Of a DNA stretch of 64,000 nucleotides, positions 3,441 through 34,626 are shown one piece after another. Both the position numbers and the translations under genes were made by a program. The DNA comes from Acidimicrobiales bacterium (GTDB lineage Bacteria; Actinomycetota; Acidimicrobiia; Acidimicrobiales; SKKL01). Numbering within the stretch: the first letter of the stretch is position 1; the number at the start of each line of letters is the position of its first letter. The notes below the pieces were generated by a model. That model searched no databases, was not told the DNA's origin, and worked only from the letters and a program-made list of their open reading frames with translations. The stretch is taken from assembly GCA_034521975.1 (NCBI GenBank), contig JAXHLR010000009.1, positions 1 to 64,000 on the forward strand. The letters run 5' to 3'.

Positions 3441-3937
3441 GGCTCGACGCTCCCGGACGGGTTGGAGCCGGCCAAGGGCCGGTGGACCACGATGGCTCGG
3501 GCCACGAGCCCGAACGATTCGAAGAAGTTCTTGGTCTCGCGGTTCCCGGGCAGGGCAAGACTGTCGATGCCGAGACAACCCCGTTCGTCGGCCCAGCCGA
3601 GCACTGCGTTCATCATCGTCTCGCCAACCCCGACCCCTCGGGCCTCGGGGTCGACGTAGAGGTCGTCGAGCATCGCCAGCAGGCCGCCGTCTCGCAGGAC
3701 CTCGATTCGGACCGCGGCGTAGCCGACGACGACACCGTCGAGCTCGCCGACCACCACGTGGTGGTCCGAGTTGTCGATCGCCGCTGACAGCGAGGCTTCG
3801 ACCGGTGCCGGGCGGGCCTCACGTCGAGCCCAGATCGCTCCGCCGCGGCTGGGTGTCAGCTCGGCGATGGCAGCCGTTGCCAGCTCGGCGATACGCTCGA
3901 GATCGCCGGGGGTTGCGGGGCGGGCCGTCTCCTCCAC
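3437..3937 (-). CDS. GNAT-family N-acetyltransferase
   Basis: 166 residues. The acetyl-CoA pyrophosphate-binding loop is seen as VDPEARGVGVGETMM, preceded by the beta-4 strand LAMLDDLYV and followed by the GCLGIDSLALPGN segment and an NFFESFGL helix typical of GNAT motif B. It should transfer an acetyl group from acetyl-CoA to an amine; the acceptor cannot be deduced. The gene ends in the 4-base ATGA overlap with the Nudix gene, forming a two-gene unit. Confidence 0.82.
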   Translation of the reverse strand: MEETARPATPGDLERIAELATAAIAELTPSRGGAIWARREARPAPVEASLSAAIDNSDHHVVVGELDGVVVGYAAVRIEVLRDGGLLAMLDDLYVDPEARGVGVGETMMNAVLGWADERGCLGIDSLALPGNRETKNFFESFGLVARAIVVHRPLAGSNPSGSVEP

Positions 3938-3940
3938 CGC

Positions 3941-4495
3941 TCAGCTGGCTTGGAGCTGGGCGATGCGGCTGAGGATGGTCATGCGCGAGCGGTGAGCCTG
4001 CTCGTAGGCCTGGACCCGGTCGAGCTCCTCGTCGGCAAGGTCGTCGAGGCGAGGCACGACCTGCGATGCCGACAGGTTGTCGTAGTCGGGGATCGGCAGC
4101 TCGTCGGTCGCAGGGGCGTTGCCGTCGACGACTCGCAGGCCGGGCGAAGGCGTGGTCTCGGGCGACCGAGATGCATCGGTCGGCGGGGAGGGCGATGTGG
4201 AGGCGGTCGAGGACTCGTCGGGGGCGTCGGTTCCGGCCAGGGGCGCGCCCGCGGCTCGAGCCACGGCCGCCAGCACCTCCTCCATCCGCTCGGCGGCGAC
4301 CGATCGCAGCTGTTCGGCCTCCTGGCGACCGCGTGCGATGGCCATGGTGCCCACCGCCCGTGCGTTGTCGAGGTCACCGCGTCCCCGTTCGGCCAGCTCG
4401 CTGACGACCTTGGGTCCGTGGAAGAACGCGCCGATCGGCGCGTAGACGACCACGTCGAGCAACGAGTCGAGCGGGGTACGTCGGGAGGGGCTCAT
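3941..4495 (-). CDS. Actinobacterial conserved protein with C-terminal helical motif
   Basis: 184 residues in three parts: an N-terminal amphipathic helical region (1-80, LLDVVVYAPIGAFFHGP then a long charged helix), a Ser/Thr/Pro-rich linker (about 88-120) and a conserved C-terminal block starting LPIPDYDNLSASQV and ending in a charged helix with YEQAHRSR. That last block is a pattern I recall from many actinobacterial proteins of unknown function, some tied to lipid droplets or the cell envelope. No enzymatic motif is seen. It lies 4 bases upstream in order from the DUF4193 gene's end and 3 bases from the GNAT gene, so it may be in one unit with them. Confidence 0.7.
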   Translation of the reverse strand: MSPSRRTPLDSLLDVVVYAPIGAFFHGPKVVSELAERGRGDLDNARAVGTMAIARGRQEAEQLRSVAAERMEEVLAAVARAAGAPLAGTDAPDESSTASTSPSPPTDASRSPETTPSPGLRVVDGNAPATDELPIPDYDNLSASQVVPRLDDLADEELDRVQAYEQAHRSRMTILSRIAQLQAS

Positions 4496-4499
4496 GGGA

Positions 4500-4967
4500 T
4501 CAAACGCAGTCCTTGCACAACATGGCGTCAGGATCGGCGAGCTGGGAGGGGTGCTTCACCAGGAAACAAGACTGGCACAAGAACTCGCCCGGGCGCCGGG
4601 GTTGGATCCGGTTGCCGGGTTCGGCGTTGGATTCGGGCTCGGGGGTCTCGTCCTCGTCCTCGTCCTCGTCGTCGGTGGCAGCGATGCGATCCTTCAAGAT
4701 GGCGTCGAGATCGGCCTCGACATCGTCGGGATCGACATCCTCCTCCTCCTCGTCGTCCTCCTCGTCGTCCTTGCGCGGGCGACGACGGGCGGCGGCATCG
4801 ACGTCCTCGTCCTCGTCGTCGTCCTCGTCGTCGCTCGCGGTGTCGTCGGCGATGGGAAGCGCCTCGTCGAGCTCGCCGTCGAGGTCGTCGTCGAGATCCT
4901 CGACCTCGGGATCGTCGGGCCCTGCCTCGTCCTCGAGGTCCTCGTCGGGCAGTTCGTCGTCAGCCAT
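4500..4967 (-). CDS. DUF4193-like acidic zinc-ribbon protein
   Basis: 155 residues. About 110 residues of very acidic Asp/Glu-rich sequence precede a C-terminal zinc ribbon with CQSC ... CKDC, the arrangement of the actinobacterial DUF4193 family (usually about 100 residues; here the acidic arm is longer). The conserved FLCQSCFLVKHPSQL phrase supports the assignment. Function is unknown in the family; the ribbon suggests binding to RNA polymerase, ribosome or another protein, which is inference. Codons of the acidic arm form long GAC/GAG runs, visible as cctcgt repeats on the plus strand. Confidence 0.82.
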   Translation of the reverse strand: MADDELPDEDLEDEAGPDDPEVEDLDDDLDGELDEALPIADDTASDDEDDDEDEDVDAAARRRPRKDDEEDDEEEEDVDPDDVEADLDAILKDRIAATDDEDEDEDETPEPESNAEPGNRIQPRRPGEFLCQSCFLVKHPSQLADPDAMLCKDCV

Positions 4968-5058
4968 GTCGTCCTTGGTGCTGGTTCAGGCGTGAGGTGG
5001 ATGCAAGGTCATGCTGGTTGCGGCCGGATCATAGGCACACCGCACCGGGGCGCAGCGA

Positions 5059-5078
5059 ACGGGCAGCGGGCTGCCCGT
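5059..5078. terminator. Hairpin downstream of the ThyX-like gene
   Basis: ACGGGCAG, a 4-base loop CGGG, then the exact complement CTGCCCGT form an 8-bp stem about 50-70 bases after the stop of the minus-strand ThyX-like gene. There is no U-tract, so this may be an intrinsic-like terminator of the GC-rich type or merely a structured spacer. The rest of the 161-base gap to the DUF4193 gene shows nothing else clear. Confidence 0.35.
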
Positions 5079-5128
5079 GTTGCCGGCCTGGCATCGTACC
5101 GGGTCGGGTCAGCCACGCCGCTTCGGTG

Positions 5129-6763
5129 TCAGGATCCCATCCGGCGTTGTTCGGCCCGTCGCTCGGCGTCGAGGCGCTCGAGGTCGGCTTCGCTGGAGTG
5201 GTCCACGAAGCTCATCATGGCGGCGATGGCACGGTGACCGGCGGTGTCGGCGATGTGGTGGTGCATCTGTTGGGCCACCGACCGATACGCGGGATGCCCC
5301 TGAGGGGTGGTGCGCAGCTCGAGCATGTGCATGGCTTCCCGGGCGTTGAGCTGGATCGAGAACCGCACCCGGTAGGCAAGGGCCACCGCGTAGGCAGCCC
5401 GATCCGGAAACGGCCCGACCATGGCGTCGTGCAGCGCGGCGGAGCGCTCCATGGCCTCGTCGAACTCGTCGCCCACGCCGGCGGCGTCGAGCTCGGGAGG
5501 TCGGGTGTAGCCGTGGGCGGGGTTGAGCTGTTGCCACTCGATGGTGAGCATGCGGTGTCGCTGGAGATCGCGGAACGCGCCGTAGTCGGCCACGATGTCG
5601 AAGCGGTACATCGGTCGTTCGAGGGCCCGGCCGGGCTTGTGTCGTCGGTTGGCCCGCTCGCCGGCGTAGGTCGACAGGACCTGGGACCGCTCGGCGTCGG
5701 TCATGTCGGCCACCAGGCGCTCGATCTCGGTCTCGGAGATGGAGAGATAGGGATAGAGCGCAGCCGTGACCAGCTTGATCTCGGCATCGGGGTCGTAGTC
5801 GACGAGGGTCACCTGGGGCTCGCCGACGTTCGAGCTGGGCGGGGTCTGATCACCGACCCCGCTGAGGCGCTCGGCGAACCCCGATGCCAACCGCTCCATG
5901 TCCTGACGGGTGCCGGACAGGTAGTCGCTCCAGACCTCTCCCCTGCCGGGGAGGTCGACGCGCTTGAGGAACGAGGGGATGACCTTGCGCAGCTCGTAGA
6001 GCATGAGATCGGCGTAGGCGCGGGCCTCGGGCAGCGGGTGGGCCCTCATCCGCAACAGCAGCTGCTCATAGCCCTGGCCCGTGCCGTAGATGCCGACGTT
6101 GGACAGCGAGGCGGCGGGCAGGATCCCGCGGAGGGTGTCGAAGGCCTTGGCCCTGATCGCCTGCCGGTAGACCAGATCGGAGTCGCTCGGATCCTTGGGG
6201 TGGACACTGCGATACCACTCCTGCATCCGCGGCACCAGCGAGGCGTAGGTGTCGAACAGGCGATCCATGTCGCCGACGTAGCGGGTGCCGAGCGCAGAGC
6301 TCAACACCTCGGGATCGCGGTGGTAGCGATAGCGCCCGCCGAGCCGGGAGTCATAGGAGATGTAGCGGGTCGACTGTTCGAGGTAGGCCATGAGCCGGCC
6401 CCACTCGAGCACCTTGGTGAGGAGGTTGGACGCCTGTTCGCAGGCCAGGTGGACCCCGCCCAGCTGGGCCACCGAGTCGTCGCCGTACTCGAAGAACACC
6501 CGGTCGTAGAGCTCTTCGGCCCGGCGGAGTCCGACGGTGGCGTCGATGGTCTGGTCGCCCGCGATGTCGAGCTCGCCGACGAACTCGTCGAGGAACAGAC
6601 GGCGCAGGCTCTTGGCCGAGCGCGAGTACCGGGCGAACAGCGCGCCCTTGACGACCTCGGGCAGGTTGACCAGTGCGAACACGGGCCCATCGAGGTTGGT
6701 GAAGTAGCGCCGGAGGATCTCGGATTCCTCGCCGGAGAACTCCTCGGCCACGTAGACGGTCAC
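5129..6763 (-). CDS. Double ThyX-like protein, probably not a canonical thymidylate synthase
   Basis: 544 residues, about twice the size of flavin-dependent thymidylate synthase ThyX (roughly 220-250). Two ThyX-like halves can be seen. The first has FEYGDDSVAQLGG and an EQSTRYISYD segment resembling the ThyX EASxRY nucleotide-binding region. The second contains LQRHRMLTIEWQQLN, matching the start of the RHR-x7-S signature, but Gln stands where the signature Ser is expected. The first half lacks an intact RHR. It is therefore a ThyX-family paralogue whose flavin-dependent methylation activity is doubtful. The GTG at 6763 was preferred over the TTG four codons upstream; neither has a strong ribosome site. 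Confidence 0.72.
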   Translation of the reverse strand: MTVYVAEEFSGEESEILRRYFTNLDGPVFALVNLPEVVKGALFARYSRSAKSLRRLFLDEFVGELDIAGDQTIDATVGLRRAEELYDRVFFEYGDDSVAQLGGVHLACEQASNLLTKVLEWGRLMAYLEQSTRYISYDSRLGGRYRYHRDPEVLSSALGTRYVGDMDRLFDTYASLVPRMQEWYRSVHPKDPSDSDLVYRQAIRAKAFDTLRGILPAASLSNVGIYGTGQGYEQLLLRMRAHPLPEARAYADLMLYELRKVIPSFLKRVDLPGRGEVWSDYLSGTRQDMERLASGFAERLSGVGDQTPPSSNVGEPQVTLVDYDPDAEIKLVTAALYPYLSISETEIERLVADMTDAERSQVLSTYAGERANRRHKPGRALERPMYRFDIVADYGAFRDLQRHRMLTIEWQQLNPAHGYTRPPELDAAGVGDEFDEAMERSAALHDAMVGPFPDRAAYAVALAYRVRFSIQLNAREAMHMLELRTTPQGHPAYRSVAQQMHHHIADTAGHRAIAAMMSFVDHSSEADLERLDAERRAEQRRMGS

Positions 6764-6872
6764 GGCGCCCGACAATAGGCCCTGGGGAGGGCGACACCGG
6801 TGACCACCGGTAGTGACCGGCGTCGGAACCGAGCCACACCAGCCGCGTCAGGGAGGACGGCAGCGGTCGCGG

Positions 6873-8072
6873 TCAGAGCACGGGCGGGTGGTCACCCTGG
6901 GTGGCCGAGCGCCACTCGTCGCGAACCGCCTCCAGGAGCTCGGGTCGGGTCCACAGGTCGATGACGGTGCTGGCCATGATGGTCGCCCCGTCGACCACGG
7001 CCGCGTCACCCGCCGCGCCCCGGGCGTGCTCGGCGAATTCGGTGGTGTGGATCGACACACCGGTCGGGGCGACCGCCAGCATCGGATGGATCGACGGGGT
7101 GAGATAGCTCACGTTTCCCATGTCGGTGCTTCCGACGACCTCACAGGTCTCGGTGGGGACGCGGAGCTGGCGGCCACGGTCCGTTGCGTTGGCGCCGAAC
7201 GCGTCGAGCAGTGCCTCGTTGGCGATCAGGTCGGCATAGGGCGGGTCGTTCCAGCGGTGCGACATCGAGCATCCGGCGGCGTGGGCACCCGCCTCGAGAC
7301 AGGCCAGCACCCGGGCCTTGAGCGGCTCGAGCGAGGTGAGGGTGCGAGACCGCACGTACCACAGGGTGCTGGCATGGCTGGGCACCACGTTGGGCTTGGC
7401 ACCTCCGTCGGTGAACACGCCATGGACCCGTTCGCACGATTCGATGTGCTGGCGCAACGTGGCGACGTTCACATAGCCCAGCACCGCCGCGTCGAGGGCG
7501 TTGCGGCCGAGATGGGGAGCCGAGGCGGCATGCGACGCCTCACCGTGGTAGTCGGCGTGCACCTGGTGGATCGACAACGTGGTCATCGTGGTGAGGTCGC
7601 GGTCGGCGGGGTGGATCATCATCGCCGCGTCGACGTCGTCGAAGGCACCGTTGCGCGCCATGAAGACCTTGCCCCCACCGCCTTCTTCGGCGGGGGTGCC
7701 CAGCAACAGGACCCGTCCCCCGAGCTCTTCGGCCACCCGGGCGGCGGCGATCCCTGCTCCCAGCCCTGCCGCGGCGATGATGTTGTGCCCGCAGGCGTGG
7801 CCGATCTCGGGAAGGGCGTCGTACTCGCAGATGATGGCGATGAGGGGGCCGGTCGTTCCGGCTCGTGCGGCGAAGCCGGTGTCGACGCCGAACGCGTGCG
7901 GTTCCACCTCGAGACCGGCCTCCGCGATCACCCGGCACAACAGGTCGTGGGCCCGCCGCTCCTCGAAGTTCAGCTCCGGGTGGTCGTAGATGGAGTGCGA
8001 CACCCACAGCAGCGTGGGGGCCAGCTGCTCGATCTCGTGTCGGACACGTTCCTTGCCCGCAACGGCATCCAT
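6873..8072 (-). CDS. M20-family metallo-amidohydrolase (aminoacylase / AbgB-like)
   Basis: 399 residues. M20 features are present: the IIAIICEYDALPEIGHACGHN segment split across the metal site (Asp and the HACGHN His), the catalytic Glu pair in TPAEEGGGG, and a C-terminal SIHTTEF segment. The closest group by pattern is the amidohydrolase set containing aminobenzoyl-glutamate hydrolase subunit B and amino-acylases, with SHAASAPHLGRNALDA marking the dimerisation domain. It should cleave an N-acyl or amide bond of a small molecule in the cytoplasm; exact substrate unknown. A TATGGT box ends 6 bases before its ATG. Confidence 0.85.
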   Translation of the reverse strand: MDAVAGKERVRHEIEQLAPTLLWVSHSIYDHPELNFEERRAHDLLCRVIAEAGLEVEPHAFGVDTGFAARAGTTGPLIAIICEYDALPEIGHACGHNIIAAAGLGAGIAAARVAEELGGRVLLLGTPAEEGGGGKVFMARNGAFDDVDAAMMIHPADRDLTTMTTLSIHQVHADYHGEASHAASAPHLGRNALDAAVLGYVNVATLRQHIESCERVHGVFTDGGAKPNVVPSHASTLWYVRSRTLTSLEPLKARVLACLEAGAHAAGCSMSHRWNDPPYADLIANEALLDAFGANATDRGRQLRVPTETCEVVGSTDMGNVSYLTPSIHPMLAVAPTGVSIHTTEFAEHARGAAGDAAVVDGATIMASTVIDLWTRPELLEAVRDEWRSATQGDHPPVL

Positions 8073-8078
8073 GGCGTC

Positions 8079-8084
8079 ACCATA
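8079..8084 (-). promoter_or_regulatory. -10 box of probable leaderless promoter (M20 gene)
   Basis: On the minus strand TATGGT is followed by 6 bases and then the ATG at 8072. Confidence 0.45.
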
Positions 8085-8099
8085 GGGCTGTCGCGATGG

Positions 8100-8711
8100 T
8101 CACACCACGCAGCGCAGCGCGTCGGGCTCGACCCGGATGCTCAGGTGGCGGGCTCGACCCCATCGACCACCGTCGAGGTAGACCTCGGTGGGGCGTTGGA
8201 AGCTGACTTGGAGGGCCCTGACCTGACGGGTGGCGATCCGGGGATGGGGCAGGTGCTCACCGCGTGGGAGCCGCGCCCTGGCCTTGAGACGATCATCGAT
8301 GCCGAGCGAGCCGTCGAGCACATCGAGGCGCCCGTCGTTGGGGTGGGCCCGTGGCGCCATCTTCCACGACCCGAGGTACTCGGCGTTCATCGCGACGACG
8401 AACCGGCCCGCCCACCAACGCTGCCGGGCCACCAGGTGGGCGACGAACCAGTGCAGGGTGCCGTCGATGAGCACCGAACCGAGATCGACCTCAAGCTCGT
8501 GGGCCTGGTCGGACCGCAGCCGCTGTTCGTCACCGGTGGCACCCACCGACCGGGCGAGGTCGCCGGCGACCAGACCGAGCACCGGCACCGGTCGATGCGC
8601 ACGGCGGGCGTCGGTGACGATGTCTCGCGCTTGGGCGTCGCTGGTGATGATGACGCCGTCGTCGGGAAGCGTCGCCGGTCTCCCCCAGTCACGGCCCTTG
8701 CGGATCGTCAC
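8100..8711 (-). CDS. Diacylglycerol-kinase-like protein lacking the GGDGT motif
   Basis: 203 residues. From about residue 80 it matches the C-terminal beta-sandwich domain of the DAGK/LCB5/YegS lipid-kinase family (FVVAMNAEYLGSWKMAP, then LDGGRWGRARHLSIRVEPD near the end). The N-terminal part keeps a segment aligned with the region following the nucleotide site (LGLVAGDLARSVG resembles the LGTANDxAR loop), but there is no GGDGT ATP-binding motif. It is thus a shortened, possibly non-catalytic lipid-kinase relative. Its start overlaps the helY stop by 4 bases, so it is the last gene of the tat-helY unit. Confidence 0.68.
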   Translation of the reverse strand: MTIRKGRDWGRPATLPDDGVIITSDAQARDIVTDARRAHRPVPVLGLVAGDLARSVGATGDEQRLRSDQAHELEVDLGSVLIDGTLHWFVAHLVARQRWWAGRFVVAMNAEYLGSWKMAPRAHPNDGRLDVLDGSLGIDDRLKARARLPRGEHLPHPRIATRQVRALQVSFQRPTEVYLDGGRWGRARHLSIRVEPDALRCVV

Positions 8712-21546: not shown

Positions 21547-23058
21547 TCACATTCCCAGTTGCTCCAGCAGTTCAGCCGGAGTCGAGCAACTCTCCAACAC
21601 GCTACCCACGTGAGCCCGCGTTCCACGTGACGGTTCCATCATCGGCACCCGACGCAAGGGATCCTCGCCCACGTCGAAGACGATGGAGTCCCAGTTGGCG
21701 GCGACGATCGCCTCCGGCCACCGCTTGAGGCACATGCCCCGGAAGTAGGCCCGCGTGTCGTCGGGCGGTTCGTCGATGGCGCTGATCGCGTCGTCGTCGG
21801 AGACGAGGCGTTCGAGCCCCACGCGGTCGGCGAGGGACCGCTCGGCCCTGAGGTCGTGGTACTGGAGGTCGAGCGCCGCCAGGCGGGGATCGCCCCACTC
21901 GGTGCCGTCACGCTCGCGATAGCGCTCCATGAGACGCAGCTTGGCCGGCCAGTCCAGCCGGTCGGCGAGGCGCATCGGATCGGCCTCGAGGTCGGTGAGG
22001 ACCTCCTCCCATCGGGTCAGGACCTCCTTGCCGACCTCCTCGCCCACGCACTCGAGACCTCGCTGCGCCGCGTAGGTCTGCGCAGCCTCGAGGAACGACC
22101 ACTGGACCTCCAGCGCCGTGATACGGGTGCCGTCAGCGAGGAGGTGCGCGGCCCGGAGCGACCGGTCGTAGGAGATCTGGCGCAGCGTGGAGACCGGCGT
22201 AGCGAACCGCAGGTCGGCGGTGAGGGCGTCGTCTTCGATCATGGCCAGCACGATCGCGGTCGTGCCCACCTTCAGGAACGTGGCGAGCTGGGACATGTTG
22301 GCGTCGCCGATGATCACGTGCAGCCGGCGATACTTCTGCGCATCGGCGTGGGGTTCGTCGCGGGTGTTGACGATGGGTCGCTTGAGGGTGGTCTCGAGCC
22401 CGACCTCCTCTTCGAAGAAGTCGGCGCGCTGACTGATCTGGAAGGGCACGTCGTCGATCGAGACGCCCTGCGCCTCGGAGCCGACCTTGCCGGCGCCGGC
22501 GAAGATCTGGCGGGTGAGGAAGTGGGGCGTGATGCTGGAGACGATGCGACCGAAGGGCACGGTGCGGTCCATGAGGTAGTTCTCGTGGCATCCGTAGGAG
22601 TTGCCCTTGCCGTCGGAGTTGTTCTTGTAGACCACGATCTCCTGGCCGGGCGGAAGGATCTCCGACGCCGCCTGCATCGACCGACGCAGGATCAGCTCGG
22701 CTGCCCGGTCGAAGCGCACGACCGAGCGGGCGTCGCCGCACTCGGGGGTCGACAGCTCGGGGTGGGCATGGTCGACGTAGTAGCGGGCGCCGTTGGTGAG
22801 CACGGCGTTGACCAGATGGGTCTCGACCTCGGGGGCCATGGCTCCCTCGGCCTGCACGAAGCCGCGGGCGTCCTTTTCGGGGGTCTCGTTCTCGAAGTCC
22901 CAGCCGACGCGACCCGCCCGAGCCGGCCGGTCCCGCTGGGTGGCTGCCAGATAGGCGTTGATGAGCATGGACGAGGCCGCGATGGGGTTCGAGTCGTCGC
23001 TGCCCCGCAGGACGATGCCGTACTCGGTCTCGATGCCGACGATCTTGCGGGTGGCCAC
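21547..23058 (-). CDS. dop: Pup deamidase/depupylase Dop
   Basis: 503 residues. Shares with PafA the KIVGIETEYGIVLRG start, [29 protein letters not shown] and NTRDEPHAD motifs, and has the longer Dop-type loop near residue 40-80. It converts the Pup C-terminal Gln to Glu and removes Pup from substrates. A GTG start with TAGGGT ending 6 bases before it. In most genomes mpa lies immediately upstream; here a cassette separates them. Confidence 0.95.
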   Translation of the reverse strand: MATRKIVGIETEYGIVLRGSDDSNPIAASSMLINAYLAATQRDRPARAGRVGWDFENETPEKDARGFVQAEGAMAPEVETHLVNAVLTNGARYYVDHAHPELSTPECGDARSVVRFDRAAELILRRSMQAASEILPPGQEIVVYKNNSDGKGNSYGCHENYLMDRTVPFGRIVSSITPHFLTRQIFAGAGKVGSEAQGVSIDDVPFQISQRADFFEEEVGLETTLKRPIVNTRDEPHADAQKYRRLHVIIGDANMSQLATFLKVGTTAIVLAMIEDDALTADLRFATPVSTLRQISYDRSLRAAHLLADGTRITALEVQWSFLEAAQTYAAQRGLECVGEEVGKEVLTRWEEVLTDLEADPMRLADRLDWPAKLRLMERYRERDGTEWGDPRLAALDLQYHDLRAERSLADRVGLERLVSDDDAISAIDEPPDDTRAYFRGMCLKRWPEAIVAANWDSIVFDVGEDPLRRVPMMEPSRGTRAHVGSVLESCSTPAELLEQLGM

Positions 23059-24047: not shown

Positions 24048-24410
24048 TCAGATTTCGGGGCCTCGATAGGCGCAGCCGGAGGTGCAGGTCTCGCTGATCG
24101 AGACCTGGAACAGGCCAGGAAGCACCGAGACGAGGCGGTTCCAGATCCAGATGGCCAGCATCTCGCTGGTCGGGTTCTCCAGGCCGTCGATCTCGTTGAG
24201 ATAGCGGTGGTCGAGCTGATCGCGCAGTGGGGCAAAGGCCTCGCCGAGGTCGGCGAAGTCGGTGACCCAGCCTCGGTGCTCCTCGACGGACCCCTCGACG
24301 TGGATCCGAGCCCGATAGGAGTGCCCGTGCAGGCGGGCGCACTTGTGGCCTTCGGGCACGTTGGGAAGCCGGTGGGCCGCCTCGAAGGTGAACTCCTTGT
24401 AGATCTCCAT
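24048..24410 (-). CDS. queD: 6-carboxy-5,6,7,8-tetrahydropterin synthase QueD
   Basis: 120 residues, typical of the family. Zinc ligands His13 (FEAAHRLP), His28 and His30 (LHGHSY) and the catalytic Cys24 are present, with [11 protein letters not shown] carrying the Asp-His of the active site. It converts dihydroneopterin triphosphate to carboxytetrahydropterin, the first dedicated step toward preQ0. Its ATG shares one base with the queE stop (TGATG), so the two are coupled. The C-terminal [12 protein letters not shown] supplies the conserved Glu. Confidence 0.92.
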
Positions 24411-25045
24411 CACTGGATCCCGAGGTATTTGTGGGTCTGGATGGTGAGCCTCCAATGCGGATGGGCGAGGCAGTACTCGACCGCCCGCTTCGTGTTGAGG
24501 TCCCGGTCGGGGCCGTCCATGGGTGACAGCAGTCGGTGGGCCGCCGGGAGGTGCTCGACCGATTTGGGCATGAGTCCGGGCTGGGGGAACACCAACTTGA
24601 GCTCGTCGATGCGGTCGACGACCAGCTCGGTGCTCGCCTTGGGGCTGACGCACACCCAGTCGACACCGGCGGGCACCGGCCGGGTGCCGTTGGTCTCGAT
24701 GGCGACCCGGAAACCCCGGTCGTGGAACGCCGACACGGCGGCGTCGTCGAGCTGAAGGGTCGGCTCTCCTCCGGTGCAGACGACGAACCGCTCCCTGGGG
24801 CCCGAGGCCCCCCACTCTTTGGCGACCGCGTCGGCGAGCGCGTCGGCGTCGGTGAATCGGCCGCCACCGGGACCGTCGGTCCCGACGAAGTCGGTGTCAC
24901 AGAAGCGGCAGATCGCGTTCGCCCGGTGCTCCTCCCGCCCCGACCACAGGTTGCAGCCGCTGAACCGGCAGAACACCGCCGGCGTGCCGCTGTTGACCCC
25001 TTCACCCTGCAGCGTGTGGAAGATCTCCTTGACCAGGTAGCTCAT
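24410..25045 (-). CDS. queE: 7-carboxy-7-deazaguanine synthase QueE
   Basis: 211 residues. Radical SAM enzyme with the C-x14-C-x2-C cluster motif (Cys31, Cys46, Cys49), the long-loop variant with [11 protein letters not shown], plus GGEPTLQ and ETNGTRPVP. It rearranges carboxytetrahydropterin to carboxydeazaguanine. Its ATG overlaps the stop of the upstream JmjC gene by 4 bases (ATGA), which physically ties 7-deazaguanine synthesis to the oxygenase genes. Confidence 0.92.
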
Positions 25046-26304
25046 CGTCGAAGCACCTCGTCGTCCTGGTCGGTGACCGTCAGGTGCCCGGCGAGCAGCC
25101 AGTCGACGAGCAGGTCGCGAGCCGACGGGTCGCGCTCGGCCACCTGGTCGACCGACACGGTGTCGCCGTCGAGCAACGGCTCGAGCAGCTTGGCCCGCGC
25201 GGCGTCGATACGAATGGTTTGGCCTTGGGTGCGCACGACGAGGGACGGCGTGTCACACGATGGATCCACCGCCTGGTCGAACTGGAGGCGGCGCGGGTTG
25301 ATCATGCGCACCATCAGCCCCTGCCCTAGGGGGAGGACGTCGCGGGTCGCGCTCCACGGGAGGCTCATCGTCGCTCGTTGGGGCCGCACGTTGACCCGCG
25401 TGTCGGCGAGGAACCGGTCGACCACGGCGTCGTCCCAGTCGGCGAGGGCGAGGTGGCGGAGCCGGTCGAGGTGAGCGGCGCGGGCGACCGGATCGGACTC
25501 GGGGGGCAGGTCGGCGCGGAACTCGGGATGGCGGGCCAGGTTGCGGGTGACCCAGTTGACCAGATCGACACCGGAGCGCTGGTAGACATCCGCGGTGAGG
25601 TGCAGGCAGGGGGTGTCGACGGTGACCGCCTCGTGCCACCAGCCCTGGGGAACGTAGAGCAGATCGCCAGGTTCGAGCACGAGCTCGTCCTGGGTCTCGG
25701 CCTCGCCCATCCCGGAGTGGTCGCCGTCGCCCATCAGCGGCCGGAGCGGGTCGGGACCGAACAGGCGCCATTGCTTGGTGCCCTCGAGCTGCATCACCAG
25801 GGTGTCGTAGCGGTCGCAGTGGGGCCCGAAGCCCTGCACCGCCTTCCAGGTGGCGAAGGCCCGGACCATGATCGGCTCGTCGAGGTCCCGCTCGAGCCCC
25901 TCGGCGAGGCGAGCGAGTGGTTCGTGGACCTTGTCGAGGTGGCGGACCAGGAGGGTGGACCCGGACCGCAACTCGTGGTTGAGCCGCACCGGGTCGAGCT
26001 GGCGGGAGCGGCTGCGGTCGATGCTGTACTCGCCGTCGACGGTGCGATCGACCGATGGCGAGTGCCGGATTCGACCCTGCCGGGACAAGGTGATGGCGTC
26101 GGCGCTGACCACGCCGTCCTCGGTCGACCGGAACCAGTCGAGGTGACGTTCACGGATGAGCGTGTTGAGCCGTGACCAGGGGAAGAGTCCCTCATAGCGG
26201 TCGGGGTCTCCTCGCACGAGAAATGGACGGCATCCGTACCCGTCGACCAGGAAGTCCTCGACGGGAACCGGAGACAAGAGATCGGCCAGGTGGGTCACGG
26301 TCAT
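25042..26304 (-). CDS. JmjC/cupin_4-type Fe(II)/2-oxoglutarate oxygenase
   Basis: 420 residues. A JmjC core at about 105-245 with an intact metal triad: His162 and Asp164 in FGPHCDRYD and His224 in PQGWWHEA. The layout (N-terminal VEDFLVDGYGCRPFLVRG, core, then helical and winged-helix-like C-terminal part) matches the ROX/YcfD group, which hydroxylates Arg or His of ribosomal proteins; here the target is unknown. 4-base overlaps join it to the two-core oxygenase upstream and queE downstream. A role in modifying the 97-residue protein at the head of the operon is inferred from context. Confidence 0.87.
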   Translation of the reverse strand: MTVTHLADLLSPVPVEDFLVDGYGCRPFLVRGDPDRYEGLFPWSRLNTLIRERHLDWFRSTEDGVVSADAITLSRQGRIRHSPSVDRTVDGEYSIDRSRSRQLDPVRLNHELRSGSTLLVRHLDKVHEPLARLAEGLERDLDEPIMVRAFATWKAVQGFGPHCDRYDTLVMQLEGTKQWRLFGPDPLRPLMGDGDHSGMGEAETQDELVLEPGDLLYVPQGWWHEAVTVDTPCLHLTADVYQRSGVDLVNWVTRNLARHPEFRADLPPESDPVARAAHLDRLRHLALADWDDAVVDRFLADTRVNVRPQRATMSLPWSATRDVLPLGQGLMVRMINPRRLQFDQAVDPSCDTPSLVVRTQGQTIRIDAARAKLLEPLLDGDTVSVDQVAERDPSARDLLVDWLLAGHLTVTDQDDEVLRR

Positions 26305-28109
26305 CGGTTCACCTCCTCTGGGCGGTCCCATGCTTCGGCGGCTGCGCCCACCAGCTCGGCCGACCGTTCGGCTCGCGTCGGGCTGCCCGAGGCGAGCCGG
26401 AGCGGTGCACGCGCCCTCGGGTCGCGGGCCATGGACGCGGCGACGGTCTCGGCGACGTCGAGCCCGGTCCGGGCGAACAGTCCGAAACGCAGGTGCAGTG
26501 ATGGCTGGTCGGTTCCCCGTACCCGGTGGTAGCAGCCTCGGGGCACGAACAGCACCTCGCCCGAGCGTACGGTGCCGGACCACCGGACCCTGCTGTCGCC
26601 CCGATCGTGGCCGAAGACCTCCCAATGCTTCTCCCCCGCCACCTGCACGACCACCACGTGGTCGGCATCGGCGTGGGTCGGGAACGCCTGGACCGGCCGC
26701 CACGAGGCGTAGGCCATGACCCGCACCGGGTCGCCGGTGGCGTCCTCGAGGGAACGGGCCAGGCGGCCGACCGCGGGGACCGAGTCCTGGAGGTCGTTGA
26801 CGAGCAGCGTGGCTCCCCCGGCGAGGACGCCTCGGAGCTGCTCGGGATCAAGGGTGAGGTGAACGTTCCCGTCGGGCCGCTCGACGGGAACGAACACCTC
26901 GCGCGGATCGAGCGCGACCCCGTCGACGTTGAGGTGGACTCCGTGGCGGAAGATCTCGGTGTCGCGTCCGGTTCGGAACCATCCAGGACGTCGGGATGTG
27001 ACGACGGTGGCCAGATCGCAAGGCGAGAGCAGGCTCGCGGCGCGATGGGGGTCACCAGGCGTGTGGAGCGACCGGCCTTCGTATCGTGCAGCGGCGAGCT
27101 CGTCGACCGACAGCGGCGCGAAGAGCTCCGACACACTCGCCGGTGGCGTGGGCGCCGCCTCGACCATCATCAGGTCCGGGAGCAGATGTGTCGCGCCGAC
27201 CGGTCGGGGGTCGGGTCGATCGCCGACGGGGACCACCGGGTTCGCTGTCCACGCCGCCCGGGCGGCACCGGCGACCGCCTCACCGACCGCCCTCGCCGAG
27301 GCAGGTCGTGTCGCGCCGACCGGCCGCTGGACCGCGAGGTGTCGGCTCAGCTCCGCTGCCAGCCTGCGAGCCAGGTGCATCCCGGTTCGGCGGTGGACAT
27401 CGAAGGTGATGTGGATCGACGGCTCGCCGGTGCCGGTCACCCGGTGCCACCACCCTCTCGGGACGACCATGACGTCCCCTGCGTGGAGGTCGTCGTCCCA
27501 GTCAGGGGCTCCGGTGGGTTCGGGGCTGTAGGCCACGTCATCGTCCACAGGATCGGGTCGTTCGGGGGCGCGCACCACCCAGTGCTTCGAGCCGGTCACC
27601 TGCACGACGACGGTATCGTGGAGGTCGGCGTGGGGAGGGAAACCGGCTTCGATGCCGTGGGTCGCGAACAGCCGGGCCGACACCGGCGCTTCCGCCAGTT
27701 CGGAGACGGTGCCCACCAGTGCGGCGACGGTCGGGTCGAGCGAATCGAGATCGTTGACGAGCAGGGTTGCGCCGGTCTCGATCTCCTGTTGCACCCGATC
27801 GATGTCGAGGCGCGGATCGGAGGTCTTGGTACGAGGGATGGTCGGTACGGTGAGCGAGGCCACCGAGACGGGACGTCCCTTGCGGGCGAGGGCGAACCGG
27901 CCGCGGGGCTCGTCGGTCCGCTGAGGTCGACCGAAGTCGAGGGGGTGGGCCGCGAGCATGGTCCAGATCTCGGACCAATCGGGCAGTGGCGTGGTGCGGG
28001 CGGGATCACCCCGCTCGCACCACACCGCCCGCCGGTCGACACACCGGTCGAGGGACTCCAGTAGCTCCAAGGTGGAGCTCGCGGTCCCGACCTGTGTTGG
28101 AGCGACCAT
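26301..28109 (-). CDS. Two-core JmjC/cupin_4 oxygenase
   Basis: 602 residues holding two JmjC-type cores. Core 1 has His160/Asp162 (PPHADLHD) and His222 (RGWWHRV); core 2 has His479/Asp481 (PTHADADH) and His528 (RGCYHRV). Each core is preceded by a TLLVNDL phrase (116-121, 434-440) and a SARLFAT or RVMAYAS strand, so this is an internal duplication with both iron sites preserved. A linker around 265-330 separates them. It begins 7 bases after the small leader-like gene and overlaps the single-core oxygenase by 4 bases. Substrate unknown; peptide hydroxylation is the working hypothesis. Confidence 0.85.
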   Translation of the reverse strand: MVAPTQVGTASSTLELLESLDRCVDRRAVWCERGDPARTTPLPDWSEIWTMLAAHPLDFGRPQRTDEPRGRFALARKGRPVSVASLTVPTIPRTKTSDPRLDIDRVQQEIETGATLLVNDLDSLDPTVAALVGTVSELAEAPVSARLFATHGIEAGFPPHADLHDTVVVQVTGSKHWVVRAPERPDPVDDDVAYSPEPTGAPDWDDDLHAGDVMVVPRGWWHRVTGTGEPSIHITFDVHRRTGMHLARRLAAELSRHLAVQRPVGATRPASARAVGEAVAGAARAAWTANPVVPVGDRPDPRPVGATHLLPDLMMVEAAPTPPASVSELFAPLSVDELAAARYEGRSLHTPGDPHRAASLLSPCDLATVVTSRRPGWFRTGRDTEIFRHGVHLNVDGVALDPREVFVPVERPDGNVHLTLDPEQLRGVLAGGATLLVNDLQDSVPAVGRLARSLEDATGDPVRVMAYASWRPVQAFPTHADADHVVVVQVAGEKHWEVFGHDRGDSRVRWSGTVRSGEVLFVPRGCYHRVRGTDQPSLHLRFGLFARTGLDVAETVAASMARDPRARAPLRLASGSPTRAERSAELVGAAAEAWDRPEEVNR

Positions 28110-28116
28110 CGGGGTG

Positions 28117-28410
28117 TCAGTCGTGGTCGACCGGCTTCCAGCCCACGAAGCCCGAACCCCCGTGGCGGATGTCGGGGAACACCTTGATGGAGATCCCTTC
28201 CAGCACCGGCTGCTGGTACACGGTGCGGCTCAGGGTGAGCGAGGTCGGGCTGGAGAACGAGTAGCCGCTCACCTCGTCGTCGGGCTCGTCCACGCTCGCC
28301 CCGAGCGCAGTGGCCAGGATGTCTCGCTGACGGTCGTTGAGACCGGCGGCAAACGCTTCCAGGCGCTCGCTCAGCTCCTCGATGTCCTCTCGGCTGATGG
28401 AATCCGACAT
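28117..28410 (-). CDS. Small leader-peptide-like protein, candidate RiPP precursor
   Basis: 97 residues. Residues 1-40 form an amphipathic helical, acidic leader-like segment (EDIEELSERLEAFAAGLNDR then ILATALGA), 41-49 is a DEPDDEVSG hinge, and 50-97 is a non-acidic, Ser/Thr/Val/Pro-rich tail containing SFSSPTSLTLSRTV, an IRHGGSGFVG double-glycine segment and a C-terminal KPVDHD. This helical leader plus contrasting tail is how ribosomally made, modified peptides often look. It is first in an operon with two JmjC oxygenase genes (7 bases to the next). No known precursor family recognised. GTGGGA about 8 bases upstream could be the ribosome site. Confidence 0.7.
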   Translation of the reverse strand: MSDSISREDIEELSERLEAFAAGLNDRQRDILATALGASVDEPDDEVSGYSFSSPTSLTLSRTVYQQPVLEGISIKVFPDIRHGGSGFVGWKPVDHD

Positions 28411-28454
28411 GTGTGTCCCACTTTCGTCGACGTCGGGCCCGAAGGCCGCCCTGA

Positions 28455-28460
28455 TACTGT
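28455..28460 (+). promoter_or_regulatory. Divergent promoter: -10 box of queC, overlapping a minus-strand box
   Basis: TACTGT ends 7 bases before the queC GTG. On the other strand the same bases read CAGTATCAG, a possible -10 for the oppositely directed peptide-oxygenase operon. The whole gap is 57 bases, so the two transcripts are likely controlled together. Confidence 0.45.
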
Positions 28461-28467
28461 CCGACCG

Positions 28468-29097
28468 GTGTCCGCTGTCGTGCTCTTGTCGGGAGGGATC
28501 GACTCCGCGGTCTGCCTGTCGGTGGCTAGACGCCGCCACGACCGGGTGGTTACAACCGCCTTCGACTACGGGCAGCGAAACCGCGTGGAAGTGGAAGCTG
28601 CCCGGACGATAGCGGAACACCATGATGTCGAGCTGAGGGTCCTCACCCTCGACCTGCCCTGGAGCGGATCGACCCTCACCGGCGACTCCGGCGCCACCGG
28701 CGCCACCAGCTATGTGCCGGGCCGCAACCTGGTGTTCCTCTCGCTCGCGGTCGCGCAGGCCGAGGCGCTCGGGTTCGATCAGGTGTACTTCGGGGCCGGA
28801 GCCACCGACCGCACCTACCCTGACTCGCGGGCCGAGTTCGTCGAGTCGCTCCAGGCCACAGTCGACCTCGCGCTCCAGACCGGGGTGGACGGTCGCCCGG
28901 TGTCGATCCGCACTCCACTGATGCCCCTCAGCAAGCCCGAGGTCATCCGGGCCGGCGTCGCCTACGGCACGCCCCTGCACCTGACCTGGAGCTGCTACCA
29001 GACTGGCCCTCGGCCGTGCCGCACGTGCGGCGCCTGCCGGCATCGGGCAGAGGCGTTCGCCGTCGCCGGGGTGGCTGATCCTCTCGTGTCGGACTGA
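28468..29097 (+). CDS. queC: 7-cyano-7-deazaguanine synthase QueC
   Basis: 209 residues. PP-loop SGGIDS at 8-13 for ATP pyrophosphatase chemistry, FDYGQRN, PGRNLVFLS, GAGATDRTYPDSR and a C-terminal zinc site in WSCY ... CRTCGACRHR. It converts carboxydeazaguanine to preQ0. All four zinc cysteines are present, so it looks like an ordinary QueC and not a diverged QatC/peptide-ligase type, although family placement needs a tree. GTG start 7 bases after TACTGT. FolE, QueF, Tgt and QueA are not in the window. Confidence 0.92.
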   Translation: MSAVVLLSGGIDSAVCLSVARRRHDRVVTTAFDYGQRNRVEVEAARTIAEHHDVELRVLTLDLPWSGSTLTGDSGATGATSYVPGRNLVFLSLAVAQAEALGFDQVYFGAGATDRTYPDSRAEFVESLQATVDLALQTGVDGRPVSIRTPLMPLSKPEVIRAGVAYGTPLHLTWSCYQTGPRPCRTCGACRHRAEAFAVAGVADPLVSD

Positions 29098-29101
29098 CCG
29101 C

Positions 29102-29920
29102 TCAGGGCGCCTCGTACCACCGATCGGCCACGCCGAAGGGTTCGCACGCCTCCCAGACCGTCCGGGCGACGACCGGATCCAAGGTGGTCCGCCACCGCTC
29201 GCTCACCGTGGCGGTCGGCCGGTAGGTGTAGAACGGCGTCGGCGACTCGCCCCCGTCACGGTCGTGCTCGGCGAGGTAGGCGACGAGCCGCTCCTGGTCG
29301 AACGAGCCGTCGAGCCCGGCGGCGACACGAGCCAACTCGGAGACCGGATCGGCGCAGAGATCCTCGTGACGGACGATCCGGTCCTGAGCGTCGAGCTCGG
29401 TGAGCACCAGGTATGTGGCGCCCCAATAGGCACCGAGCGCCCGCCACGGATCGGCTCGGGACGCCTCGAGGCGTTCGAGGTGGGCAGCCAGATGACCCTC
29501 GACGAGTGCGGGCTGGCTCAGCAGCCGTCCGATCGCGTCGCCCGCTCCCCAGCCGAGCCCGCTCCAGCTCGCCGCCACCGGACAGGGGTGGCGCACGAGC
29601 GTCACCGTCGAGCGGACGGGAAAGCGATCGCCGAGGAAGCCGAGTGCCAACAGCGCGTGGACGTCCTTCACCACCACCCGCTTTGCGTCATCGACATCGA
29701 GAGCCCGGAGGGCGTCACGCAGCACCTTGCCGTGGCGCCAGTCGTCGGACCCGGCGGGGAGGTATCGCATCTGATATGGACTGCCGGCGGGGTTCATGCT
29801 CCAGTTGTACGGCTCGAACACCAGCGGGGCATCGAGCGCGGCCGACACCGCTTGGGCGGTCCAGGTCGTGCCGCTGCGCGGGAACCCGGCGATGAGGAGA
29901 ATCTCGGGTAGTCGGACCAC
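29102..29920 (-). CDS. Sulfotransferase family protein
   Basis: 272 residues. The PAPS 5'-phosphosulfate loop is FPRSGTTWTAQ near the N-terminus and the 3'-phosphate region is LVRHPCPVAASW. No transmembrane segment. It should move a sulfuryl group from PAPS to a hydroxyl or amine, or be a related nucleotide-binding protein. It converges with queC (4 bases apart). GTG start 6 bases after a TAGGGT box. Whether it belongs to the peptide cassette is unknown. Confidence 0.8.
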   Translation of the reverse strand: MVRLPEILLIAGFPRSGTTWTAQAVSAALDAPLVFEPYNWSMNPAGSPYQMRYLPAGSDDWRHGKVLRDALRALDVDDAKRVVVKDVHALLALGFLGDRFPVRSTVTLVRHPCPVAASWSGLGWGAGDAIGRLLSQPALVEGHLAAHLERLEASRADPWRALGAYWGATYLVLTELDAQDRIVRHEDLCADPVSELARVAAGLDGSFDQERLVAYLAEHDRDGGESPTPFYTYRPTATVSERWRTTLDPVVARTVWEACEPFGVADRWYEAP

Positions 29921-30108: not shown

Positions 30109-31884
30109 CTACAGGTACTGGCCGGTGGCCACCCGTTCGATCGCGCGACCCCCAGCTTGCTCTTCTCTCTCGGAGGAGATGAGGGTGCGCACATAGACGA
30201 TGCGCTCGCCCTTCTTGCCCGAGATCTTGGCCCAATCGTCGGGGTTGGTGGTGTTGGGCAGGTCTTCGTGCTCCTTGTACTCCTGGCGGATCGACGCCAG
30301 CAGGTCGTCGGTGCGGATGCCTGCCTCTCCCCCGGCGATGACCCGCTTGATGGCGAGCTTCTTGGCCCGCCGGACGATGTTTTCGATCATGGCGCCCGAC
30401 GAGAAGTCCTTGAAGTACATGACCTCTTTGTCACCATTCTGGTAGGTGACCTCGAGGAACTGGTTCGCCTCGTCGTCGCGGTACATGGCTTCGACGGTGT
30501 GCTCGATCATGGCTCGGACGGCCTTGTCGGCATCGCCGCCGCCGAGGGACCGGACCTCGGCCGGGTCGAGCGGGAGGTCAGCGGTGAGGTACCGGCCGAA
30601 GATCGAGGCTGCGGCCGCTTCGTTGGGCCGCTCGATCTTGATCTTCACGTCGAGACGGCCCGGGCGCAGGATCGCAGGGTCGATGAGATCCTCGCGGTTC
30701 GACGCCCCGATGACGATGACGTTCTTGAGCGTCTCGACCCCGTCGATCTCGGCGAGGAGCTGGGGCACGATGGTGGACTCCATGTCGGAGCTGATGCCGG
30801 TGCCGCGGGTGCGGAACAACGACTCCATCTCGTCGAAGAAGACGATGACCGGCCAGCCCTCCTCGGACTTCTCGCGGGCCCGCTGAAAGACCAGGCGGAT
30901 CTGACGCTCGGTCTCTCCCACGTACTTGTTCAACAGCTCGGGGCCCTTGATGTTGAGGAAGTAGCTGCGGGCCTCGCGGTCGCCGCTCACCTCGGCCACC
31001 TTGGTGGCGAGGCTGTTGGCCACCGCCTTGGCGATGAGGGTCTTGCCGCAACCCGGTGGGCCGTACAGCAGGATGCCCTTGGGTGCCGGCAGCCGGTACT
31101 CGGAGAACAGGCGCTGGTGCAGGAACGGGAGCTCGACCGCGTCGACGATCGCCTCGATCTGGTCGTCGAGCCCACCGACGTCGGAGTAGGAGATGTCGGG
31201 CACCTCCTCGAGCACCAGCTCCTCGACCTCGGGTCGAGGGAGGCGCTCGAGCAACAGGCCGGAACGGGTGTCGAGGAGCAGCACATCGCCGGACCGCAGA
31301 TGCGAGGTGTCGACGTCGTCGACGAACTCGGCGACCCGTTCCTCGTCGGCCCGTCCGACGATCAGGGCTCGCATGCCGTCGGGCATGAGCTCTTTGAGGG
31401 TGACGACCTCGCCGGTGAGCTCGGCTTGGCGGGCCAGCACCACGTTGAGCGACTCGTTGAGCACGACCTCCTGGCCCCTGACGAGCCCCGCGTCGCGCAG
31501 CTCGGGATGCAGCTCGACTCGCATCTTGCGGCCGCCGGAGAACACGTCGACGGTGCCGTCGTCGTTGCCGCCGAGGTAGGTGGCGTAGGCGGAGGGCGGT
31601 TGGGTGAGCTTCTCGACCTCCTCGCGGAGCGCGGCGATGTGCTCCCGCGCCTCGCGGAGGGTGTAGGTGAGCTTCTCGTTCTGGGAGATGGCCTGGGCGA
31701 GCTGCCCCTTGGTCTCGAGGAGGCGCTCCTCGAGCGTGCGGACGCGCTTGGGCGCGTCCTGGAGGCGGCGCCGGAGCGTCTCGACCTCCTCCGCGTAGGT
31801 CGCCAGCTGGCTGCGCAGCTCGGCCAACTCGTGTTCGGAGGGTTCGCCCGATCCGGGCTGCGGTTCGGACCCCTCGGACCTCAT
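30109..31884 (-). CDS. mpa: Proteasome-associated AAA+ ATPase (Mpa/ARC)
   Basis: 591 residues. N-terminal coiled coil (about 20-95) that binds Pup, two OB domains (about 96-245), an AAA+ domain with [20 protein letters not shown] and [11 protein letters not shown], and a C-terminal GQYL tail (an HbYX-like motif) that docks into the PrcA ring. It unfolds pupylated proteins into the proteasome. The ATG at 31884 has GGAAGG upstream; an ATG 11 codons earlier lacks a ribosome site and sits in a TATGGT box. It is 7 kb away from dop, with the oxygenase/queC cassette between. Confidence 0.94.
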
Positions 31885-32080: not shown

Positions 32081-32323
32081 ATGGCTATGAAGGTCTGGAT
32101 CGACCAGGATCTGTGCACCGGCGACGGCTTGTGCGAAGAGATCGCCCCCGATGTGTTCACCCTGCTCGACGACGGCTTGGCCTATGTCAAGGAGGGCGAC
32201 AAGGTCATGTCGGACCCCGGCGGAGCCGAGGGCCTGGCCAACGTCCCCGGCGGCCAGGAAGACGCCGTCATCGAGTCGGCCGAGGAATGCCCCGGCGAGT
32301 GCATCTTCATCGAGGTCGACTAG
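32081..32323 (+). CDS. Ferredoxin, single-cluster acidic type (copy 1)
   Basis: 80 residues, very acidic. Cysteines in CTGDGLC and CPGEC give four candidate ligands; spacing resembles the small 3Fe-4S/4Fe-4S ferredoxins that feed cytochromes P450 or other oxygenases in actinobacteria. Its soluble, cytoplasmic electron-carrier role is well supported, the partner is not. 78 of 80 residues are identical to copy 2 at 34384; only residues 2 and 54 differ. No reductase gene is adjacent. It could serve the oxygenases or radical SAM QueE nearby, but there is no direct evidence. Confidence 0.88.
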   Translation: MAMKVWIDQDLCTGDGLCEEIAPDVFTLLDDGLAYVKEGDKVMSDPGGAEGLANVPGGQEDAVIESAEECPGECIFIEVD

Positions 32324-34383: not shown

Positions 34384-34626
34384 ATGGGTATGAAGGTCTG
34401 GATCGACCAGGATCTGTGCACCGGCGACGGCTTGTGCGAAGAGATCGCCCCCGATGTGTTCACCCTGCTCGACGACGGCCTGGCCTATGTCAAGGAGGGC
34501 GACAAGGTCATGTCGGACCCCGGTGGAGCCGAGGGCCTGGCCAGCGTCCCCGGCGGCCAGGAAGACGCCGTCATCGAGTCGGCCGAGGAATGTCCCGGCG
34601 AGTGCATCTTCATCGAGGTCGACTAG
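34384..34626 (+). CDS. Ferredoxin, single-cluster acidic type (copy 2)
   Basis: 80 residues, with the same CTGDGLC and CPGEC cluster ligands as copy 1. Differs by Gly2 for Ala and Ser54 for Asn, and by only a few silent bases. Such near-identity across 240 bases, with conserved promoter elements but divergent flanks, points to recent duplication or gene conversion. Partner enzyme unknown. Confidence 0.88.
   Translation: MGMKVWIDQDLCTGDGLCEEIAPDVFTLLDDGLAYVKEGDKVMSDPGGAEGLASVPGGQEDAVIESAEECPGECIFIEVD

Follow-up and report, generated by a model that had tools for sequence, protein, structure and literature searches.

The 97-residue peptide pep97, encoded on the minus strand at positions 28117-28410 of the window, i.e. 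of the whole 64,000-nucleotide stretch of Acidimicrobiales DNA analysed here, is quite likely the precursor of a RiPP-like pathway tailored by JmjC enzymes, in which the adjacent protein J420 would dock the leader of the peptide and three JmjC sites would hydroxylate its tail. The earlier note had proposed a RiPP-type precursor with a helical leader tied to JmjC proteins, and this proposal is supported, although not proven, by three independent lines of evidence, namely a leader family to which pep97 belongs, an RRE-like domain in J420 together with intact active sites in the enzymes, and JmjC-peptide pairs that recur in other bacteria. pep97 is thus probably the raw material that the adjacent hydroxylases modify.

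The peptide gene and its surroundings

The pep97 frame in the ORF list starts with ATG at 28410, ends with TGA at 28119-28117 and comprises 97 codons. Its translation is MSDSISREDIEELSERLEAFAAGLNDRQRDILATALGASVDEPDDEVSGYSFSSPTSLTLSRTVYQQPVLEGISIKVFPDIRHGGSGFVGWKPVDHD, and the plus strand over 28117-28410 encodes something else. With GC contents of 0.64, 0.45 and 0.89 at the three codon positions the frame resembles its neighbours and shows normal coding composition for the genome; a longer in-frame ORF of 308 amino acids covering pep97 is not credible, as it runs antisense into queC. The motifs described earlier are all found in the translation, i.e. DEPDDEVSG at residues 41-49, IRHGGSGF at 81-88, the Gly pair at 84-85 and SGFVGWKPVDHD at 86-97. 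JJ602 starts 7 nt downstream of pep97, its stop codon overlaps the start of J420 by ATGA, the stop of J420 overlaps queE by 4 nt, and queD is next. By this spacing, these overlaps and the three intact JmjC sites encoded downstream, pep97 has the features of a small ORF coupled to peptide-modifying enzymes. Searches with pep97 gave no hit in Pfam, NCBIfam or PDB sequences, and 59 relatives, the genome contigs, plasmids and viral contigs yielded no orthologue. A single-sequence AlphaFold2 model, which at a pLDDT of 54 serves as a guide only, has helices at residues 7-22 and 26-37, low-confidence strands at 46-54, 57-64 and 67-76, and disorder at 78-97. Residues 1-40, taken earlier for an amphipathic helix, are therefore helical as claimed, but are modelled, at low confidence, as two helices instead of one.

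pep97 lies in an island (24048-29920, both strands) between arc (30109-31884) and dop (21547-23058). The latter two genes are adjacent in five relatives and are separated in a sixth only by an alpha/beta-hydrolase gene, whereas about 7 kb lie between them in the window, and the island genes have no counterpart at this site in the six relatives. Besides pep97, JJ602 and J420 these are queD (24048-24410, minus strand; TIGR03367, 8.7e-28), queE (24410-25045, minus strand; TIGR04508, 4.1e-99), queC, located upstream of pep97 and divergent from it (28468-29097, plus strand; TIGR00364, 4.4e-47), and, at the island edge and convergent with queC, a gene for a sulfotransferase-like Sulfotransfer_3 protein (29102-29920, minus strand; Pfam, 1.5e-6). 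Elsewhere in the window, near-identical genes for 80-residue ferredoxins (32081-32323 and 34384-34626) flank an ABC sugar-permease-like pair, which suggests a recent duplication.

The JmjC enzymes

JJ602 (26301-28109, minus strand; 602 residues) contains two JmjC_2 (PF08007) domains (Pfam, 3.7e-28), the HxD...H triads of which, H160/D162/H222 and H479/D481/H528, are both intact. Its halves are 37% identical to each other, and it has no close relative in the genome contigs. J420 (25042-26304, minus strand; 420 residues) is a JmjC_2 hydroxylase (Pfam, 7.6e-25) with an intact triad, H162/D164/H224, and a C-terminal winged-helix/RRE-like domain. It thus combines the JmjC HxD...H site with a winged helix as ribosomal oxygenases (ROX) do, whereas no winged helix was detected in JJ602. 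The closest PDB sequence relatives of both proteins are NO66, MINA53 and YcfD.

The C-terminal domain of J420 (residues 324-411; 25072-25335, minus strand) matches the Pfam model ROXA-like_wH (3.6e-4) and is the sole confident part of the J420 model (pLDDT about 80 over residues 370-410), which explains why Foldseek searches with the whole model gave weak results. In this single-sequence model the strands 341-346, 353-359 and 362-366 precede the helices 368-378, 385-391 and 393-404, i.e. the domain has βββ-ααα order. Structurally it resembles MINA53 (Z 8.9, 3.2 Å over 85 residues), NO66 (Z about 7), the RRE of ThcOx (Z 7.2, 2.2 Å over 75 residues) and the RREs of TigE, NisB, TbiB1, PbtF, PqqD and MccB (Z 5-6.1), where a Z below 8 on its own may reflect a mere common arrangement. 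The winged helices of ribosomal oxygenases, which have the same fold and are not RiPP enzymes, are matched at least as well as the RREs. The RRE-like match agrees with passages of a report according to which PF08007 JmjC proteins carry RRE-like βββ-ααα folds and bacterial homologues occur in RiPP-like contexts (PMC12710340). J420 shares with the proteins described in these passages the JmjC_2 domain, the C-terminal βββ-ααα domain and the RiPP-like context; the passages give no precursor, and the present analysis adds a candidate for it, the leader family and the Gly-rich peptides that recur as partners of JmjC genes.

The leader family

Residues 1-40 of pep97 (28291-28410, minus strand), which comprise the two predicted helices, are followed by an acidic hinge (residues 41-50; 28261-28290, minus strand) that ends in EVxG[FY]. 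The same layout, helix-helix followed by an invariant E-x-x-G (E46 and G49 in pep97) that is usually part of EVxG[FY], is found in 10 leaders. Two of these belong to further small proteins of the same genome, L003 (97 residues) and L002 (89 residues), and leader-bearing genes of the phylum were also retrieved from G508, G531, G260 and G403 by a profile search, the profile having pep97 among its sequences. Against a profile of seven leaders that excludes pep97, L002 and L003 (search-space setting 6000), pep97 scores E = 4e-6, L002 7.7e-15 and L003 3.5e-14, whereas among 10,000 shuffled versions of pep97 or of its leader the best value is 0.25. Seven weak matches in other frames were dismissed as chance. 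The family members tested match no Pfam or NCBIfam leader model, and, judged by these sequence comparisons, the pep97 leader belongs to an uncatalogued leader family, absent from both collections.

The genes next to these leaders differ. L003 (contig C6 of the same genome, near 684296), which ends in KDPWVLRAYDEWYPG, is followed by a weakly related ORF of 87 residues and then by a gene for a radical-SAM/SPASM protein, the best NCBIfam models of which are DarW and DarE, both below cut-off; the locus is a candidate cyclophane RiPP cluster. pep97 hence has a conserved leader in common with a peptide that adjoins a radical-SAM maturase gene. G508 carries three tandem leader-bearing genes on one contig, one of them interrupted, with matching leaders and diverging tails, two copies sharing 86% of the leader residues and 52% of the 27 alignable tail residues. 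In G531 the gene that immediately follows the leader gene encodes an FHA-ABC transporter. The gene for L002 (contig C5, near 519570) has a sigma factor gene and an S8 peptidase gene as neighbours. Including this one, five loci of leader relatives have sigma-70 genes nearby, in many cases together with genes for S8 peptidases and GAF proteins, and several of these L002-type loci have a conserved LR[VI]xGL tail, pointing to a recurring system. As such relatives keep a conserved tail, the leader family is not exclusively of RiPP type. Among the JmjC genes of relatives none is adjoined by a pep97-type leader, and those of the window are the sole case found. In its occurrence beside different enzymes or transporters (radical SAM, JmjC, ABC transporter) the family resembles the Nif11 and NHLP leaders, from which it differs in that the members tested match no catalogued leader model.

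The tail and partner peptides of JmjC enzymes in other bacteria

Residues 51-97 of pep97 (28120-28260, minus strand) form a divergent tail and putative core, which differs from the tails of most leader relatives. Its Gly-rich, disordered part from about residue 78 on is FPDIRHGGSGFVGWKPVDHD, and it ends in RHGGSGFVGWKPVDHD, comprising the motif GGSG (residues 84-87; 28150-28161, minus strand) and a D-x-[DN] C-terminus as in Streptomyces JmjC-adjacent peptides, which end in DGGGTGxSDGND. Tails differ among the leader paralogues; GG[ST]G and an acidic end are common to pep97 and the JmjC-adjacent peptides. In all DNA covered by this search, matches to the pattern GG[ST]G-x(2-12)-D-x(1-2)-[DN]-stop were limited to pep97 and nine JmjC-adjacent peptides of Streptomyces type, a result that is suggestive only, as the pattern was written after pep97 and the Streptomyces peptides had been seen and the tail likeness is short; among background ORFs 0.47% have GG[ST]G in their last 20 residues. 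GG[ST]G recurs at the C-terminal ends of peptides whose genes adjoin related JmjC genes, which suggests that the motif lies within the modified segment. The earlier view that the tail is the part of pep97 likely to be modified is supported. The residues that the tail shares most with partner peptides elsewhere are Asp and Asn.

On plasmids of several phyla, relatives of J420 and JJ602 adjoin small Gly/Asp-rich peptides. Such pairs were found in Streptomyces, Nocardia, Nostoc and Acidimicrobiia, and JmjC relatives lie within bacteriocin or YcaO clusters in Acinetobacter, Moraxella, Pantoea and Paraburkholderia. In Streptomyces, J420 relatives are part of a plasmid cassette that consists of a peptide of 45-52 residues, a cupin/JmjC gene, usually an aldo/keto reductase gene and a gene for a further protein. 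The peptides end in DGGGTG[RKN]SDGND or in DGGGTGKGDGND, the latter being unannotated ORFs at two loci; in one Streptomyces cassette a peptide that ends in DGGGTGKSDGND is paired with its cupin gene. Ten Streptomyces loci of this kind were noted, with ends of the form DGGGTGxxDGND. In other Acidimicrobiia and Actinobacteria, Asp/Gly-rich ORFs lie directly upstream of JmjC genes, and at five loci Asp/Gly-repeat ORFs (e.g. DGTDGGDSDGTDGG and GGHDGGADGSA) precede JmjC_2 genes. Nostoc encodes two peptides, ending in NWSGGEGDDNA and ESGENGGEGAESG, upstream of a JmjC gene. An Acinetobacter plasmid carries, in series, genes for a peptide with a double-glycine-type leader, a cupin protein, HlyD and a peptidase-ABC transporter, and similar sets are found on Moraxella and E. 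coli plasmids; three loci on such plasmids, one of them at positions 3499-8304 of its sequence (L145), have JmjC/cupin genes in bacteriocin-like export operons. The JmjC loci of Pantoea and Paraburkholderia contain YcaO, TfuA and ThiF genes.

Discussion

Based on our findings we propose that residues 1-49 of pep97 may serve as two-helix recognition leader ending in the EVxG[FY] hinge, that the C-terminal winged-helix/RRE-like domain of J420 would dock this leader, and that three Fe(II)/2-oxoglutarate-dependent JmjC sites, one in J420 and two in JJ602, would then hydroxylate the Gly-rich tail (about residues 78-97). Ribosomal oxygenases are known to hydroxylate Arg or His residues close to Gly-rich loops, which makes R82 and H83 of RHGGSG attractive, and the hydroxylated residues would most plausibly be His83, Arg82 or Asp/His residues near Gly. 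The binding of the leader by J420, the choice of the hydroxylated residues and any removal of the leader are steps that we infer.

Less probably, pep97 would undergo hydroxylation, but neither cleavage nor export, and would act as an intact small protein, e.g. in regulation or metal binding. Such a function would be in line with the predicted strands at 46-76, with the L002-type relatives, which keep their tails and adjoin a sigma factor gene, and with the finding that no leader peptidase or exporter was seen in the pep97 operon or among the ORFs at 20-36 kb. However, the leader could be removed by peptidases whose genes lie elsewhere in the genome, and the disordered Gly-rich C-terminus and the diverging tails of the leader relatives argue against an intact function. 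That J420 and JJ602 are ribosomal oxygenases of the YcfD/MINA53/NO66 type with a ribosomal protein as substrate, and pep97 an unrelated small protein, chaperone or adaptor, appears unlikely. The enzymes do have NO66, MINA53 and YcfD as top PDB sequence matches, and the ROXA-like C-terminus of J420 reaches its highest Z against MINA53, but related JmjC genes repeatedly adjoin small peptides, some of them in bacteriocin or YcaO clusters, the pep97 leader is common to a radical-SAM-associated peptide, and three JmjC domains per operon would be unusual for a single ribosomal site. J420 shares the JmjC fold, the HxD...H site and the winged helix with YcfD, MINA53 and NO66, but ROX enzymes act on ribosomal proteins, whereas the operon of the window couples a peptide gene to the enzymes, one of which, JJ602, consists of two fused JmjC domains. 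The least likely reading is a bacteriocin with double-glycine leader, in which cleavage after Gly85 would free the 12 C-terminal residues. The Gly pair is present, but it lies at 84-85 of 97 residues, within a glycine-rich motif instead of at the end of a short leader, GG[ST]G is also found repeatedly within the tails of JmjC-adjacent peptides, and no peptidase-ABC exporter gene is found among the ORFs at 20-36 kb, so that the cleavage site suspected earlier is not supported.

The que genes allow a further reading, which we regard as very improbable, namely that QueC links a deazaguanine derived from the 7-carboxy-7-deazaguanine of QueD/QueE to the peptide, in the manner of the QueC-family proteins of type IV CBASS. 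It would be consistent with the shared island, with the 4-nt overlap of J420 and queE and with the precedent of nucleobase-protein conjugation (PMC11996544). Yet QueC fits the ordinary equivalog model, and relatives carry queC-queE-queD and queD-queC-queE sets without peptide or JmjC genes: a queE of the window type was found in 5 of 58 genomes searched, and the queC-queE-queD sets of these relatives, as well as that of G145, lack both. Moreover, tgt and queA are located side by side in the same genome, so that queuosine synthesis is the best explanation for the que genes, the peptide-JmjC pair being inserted among them; most likely they are ordinary queuosine genes travelling with this pair. 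A divergent, repurposed QueC, suspected on the basis of 40% identity to members of the order, was dropped as a relative with 53-55% identity is part of an ordinary queD-queC-queE set. Formation of a nitrilobacillin-like C-terminal nitrile by QueC, considered because pep97 has a C-terminal Asp and queC adjoins, was also dropped, as the nitrile enzyme, PesC, is asparagine-synthetase-like and not a QueC.

Returning to the JmjC-tailored precursor, the nearest known systems include the biphenomycin-type RiPPs, where JmjC hydroxylases, BipG/BpmG (Orn hydroxylase), and the cupin-like PbsQ are encoded in RiPP clusters. The window resembles these clusters in this respect, but contains no MNIO, arginase, B12-radical-SAM or FRF core, and has three PF08007 domains. 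Tentatively, PF08007 JmjC enzymes with RRE-like winged helices and Gly/Asp-rich peptides might constitute a RiPP class that is widespread across phyla, represented here by three sites that would act on one peptide, the helical leader of which would be interchangeable and serve radical-SAM pathways as well, and the eukaryotic ribosomal oxygenases might share ancestry with peptide-tailoring enzymes. Should the proposed role of pep97 hold true, a bacterial peptide substrate would be defined for the JmjC/ribosomal-oxygenase fold, a testable tie would link RRE domains to the winged helix of MINA53 and NO66, and the uncatalogued leader family and the recurrent JmjC-peptide cassette, e.g. that of Streptomyces with its DGGGTGxSDGND ends, would become usable in genome mining.
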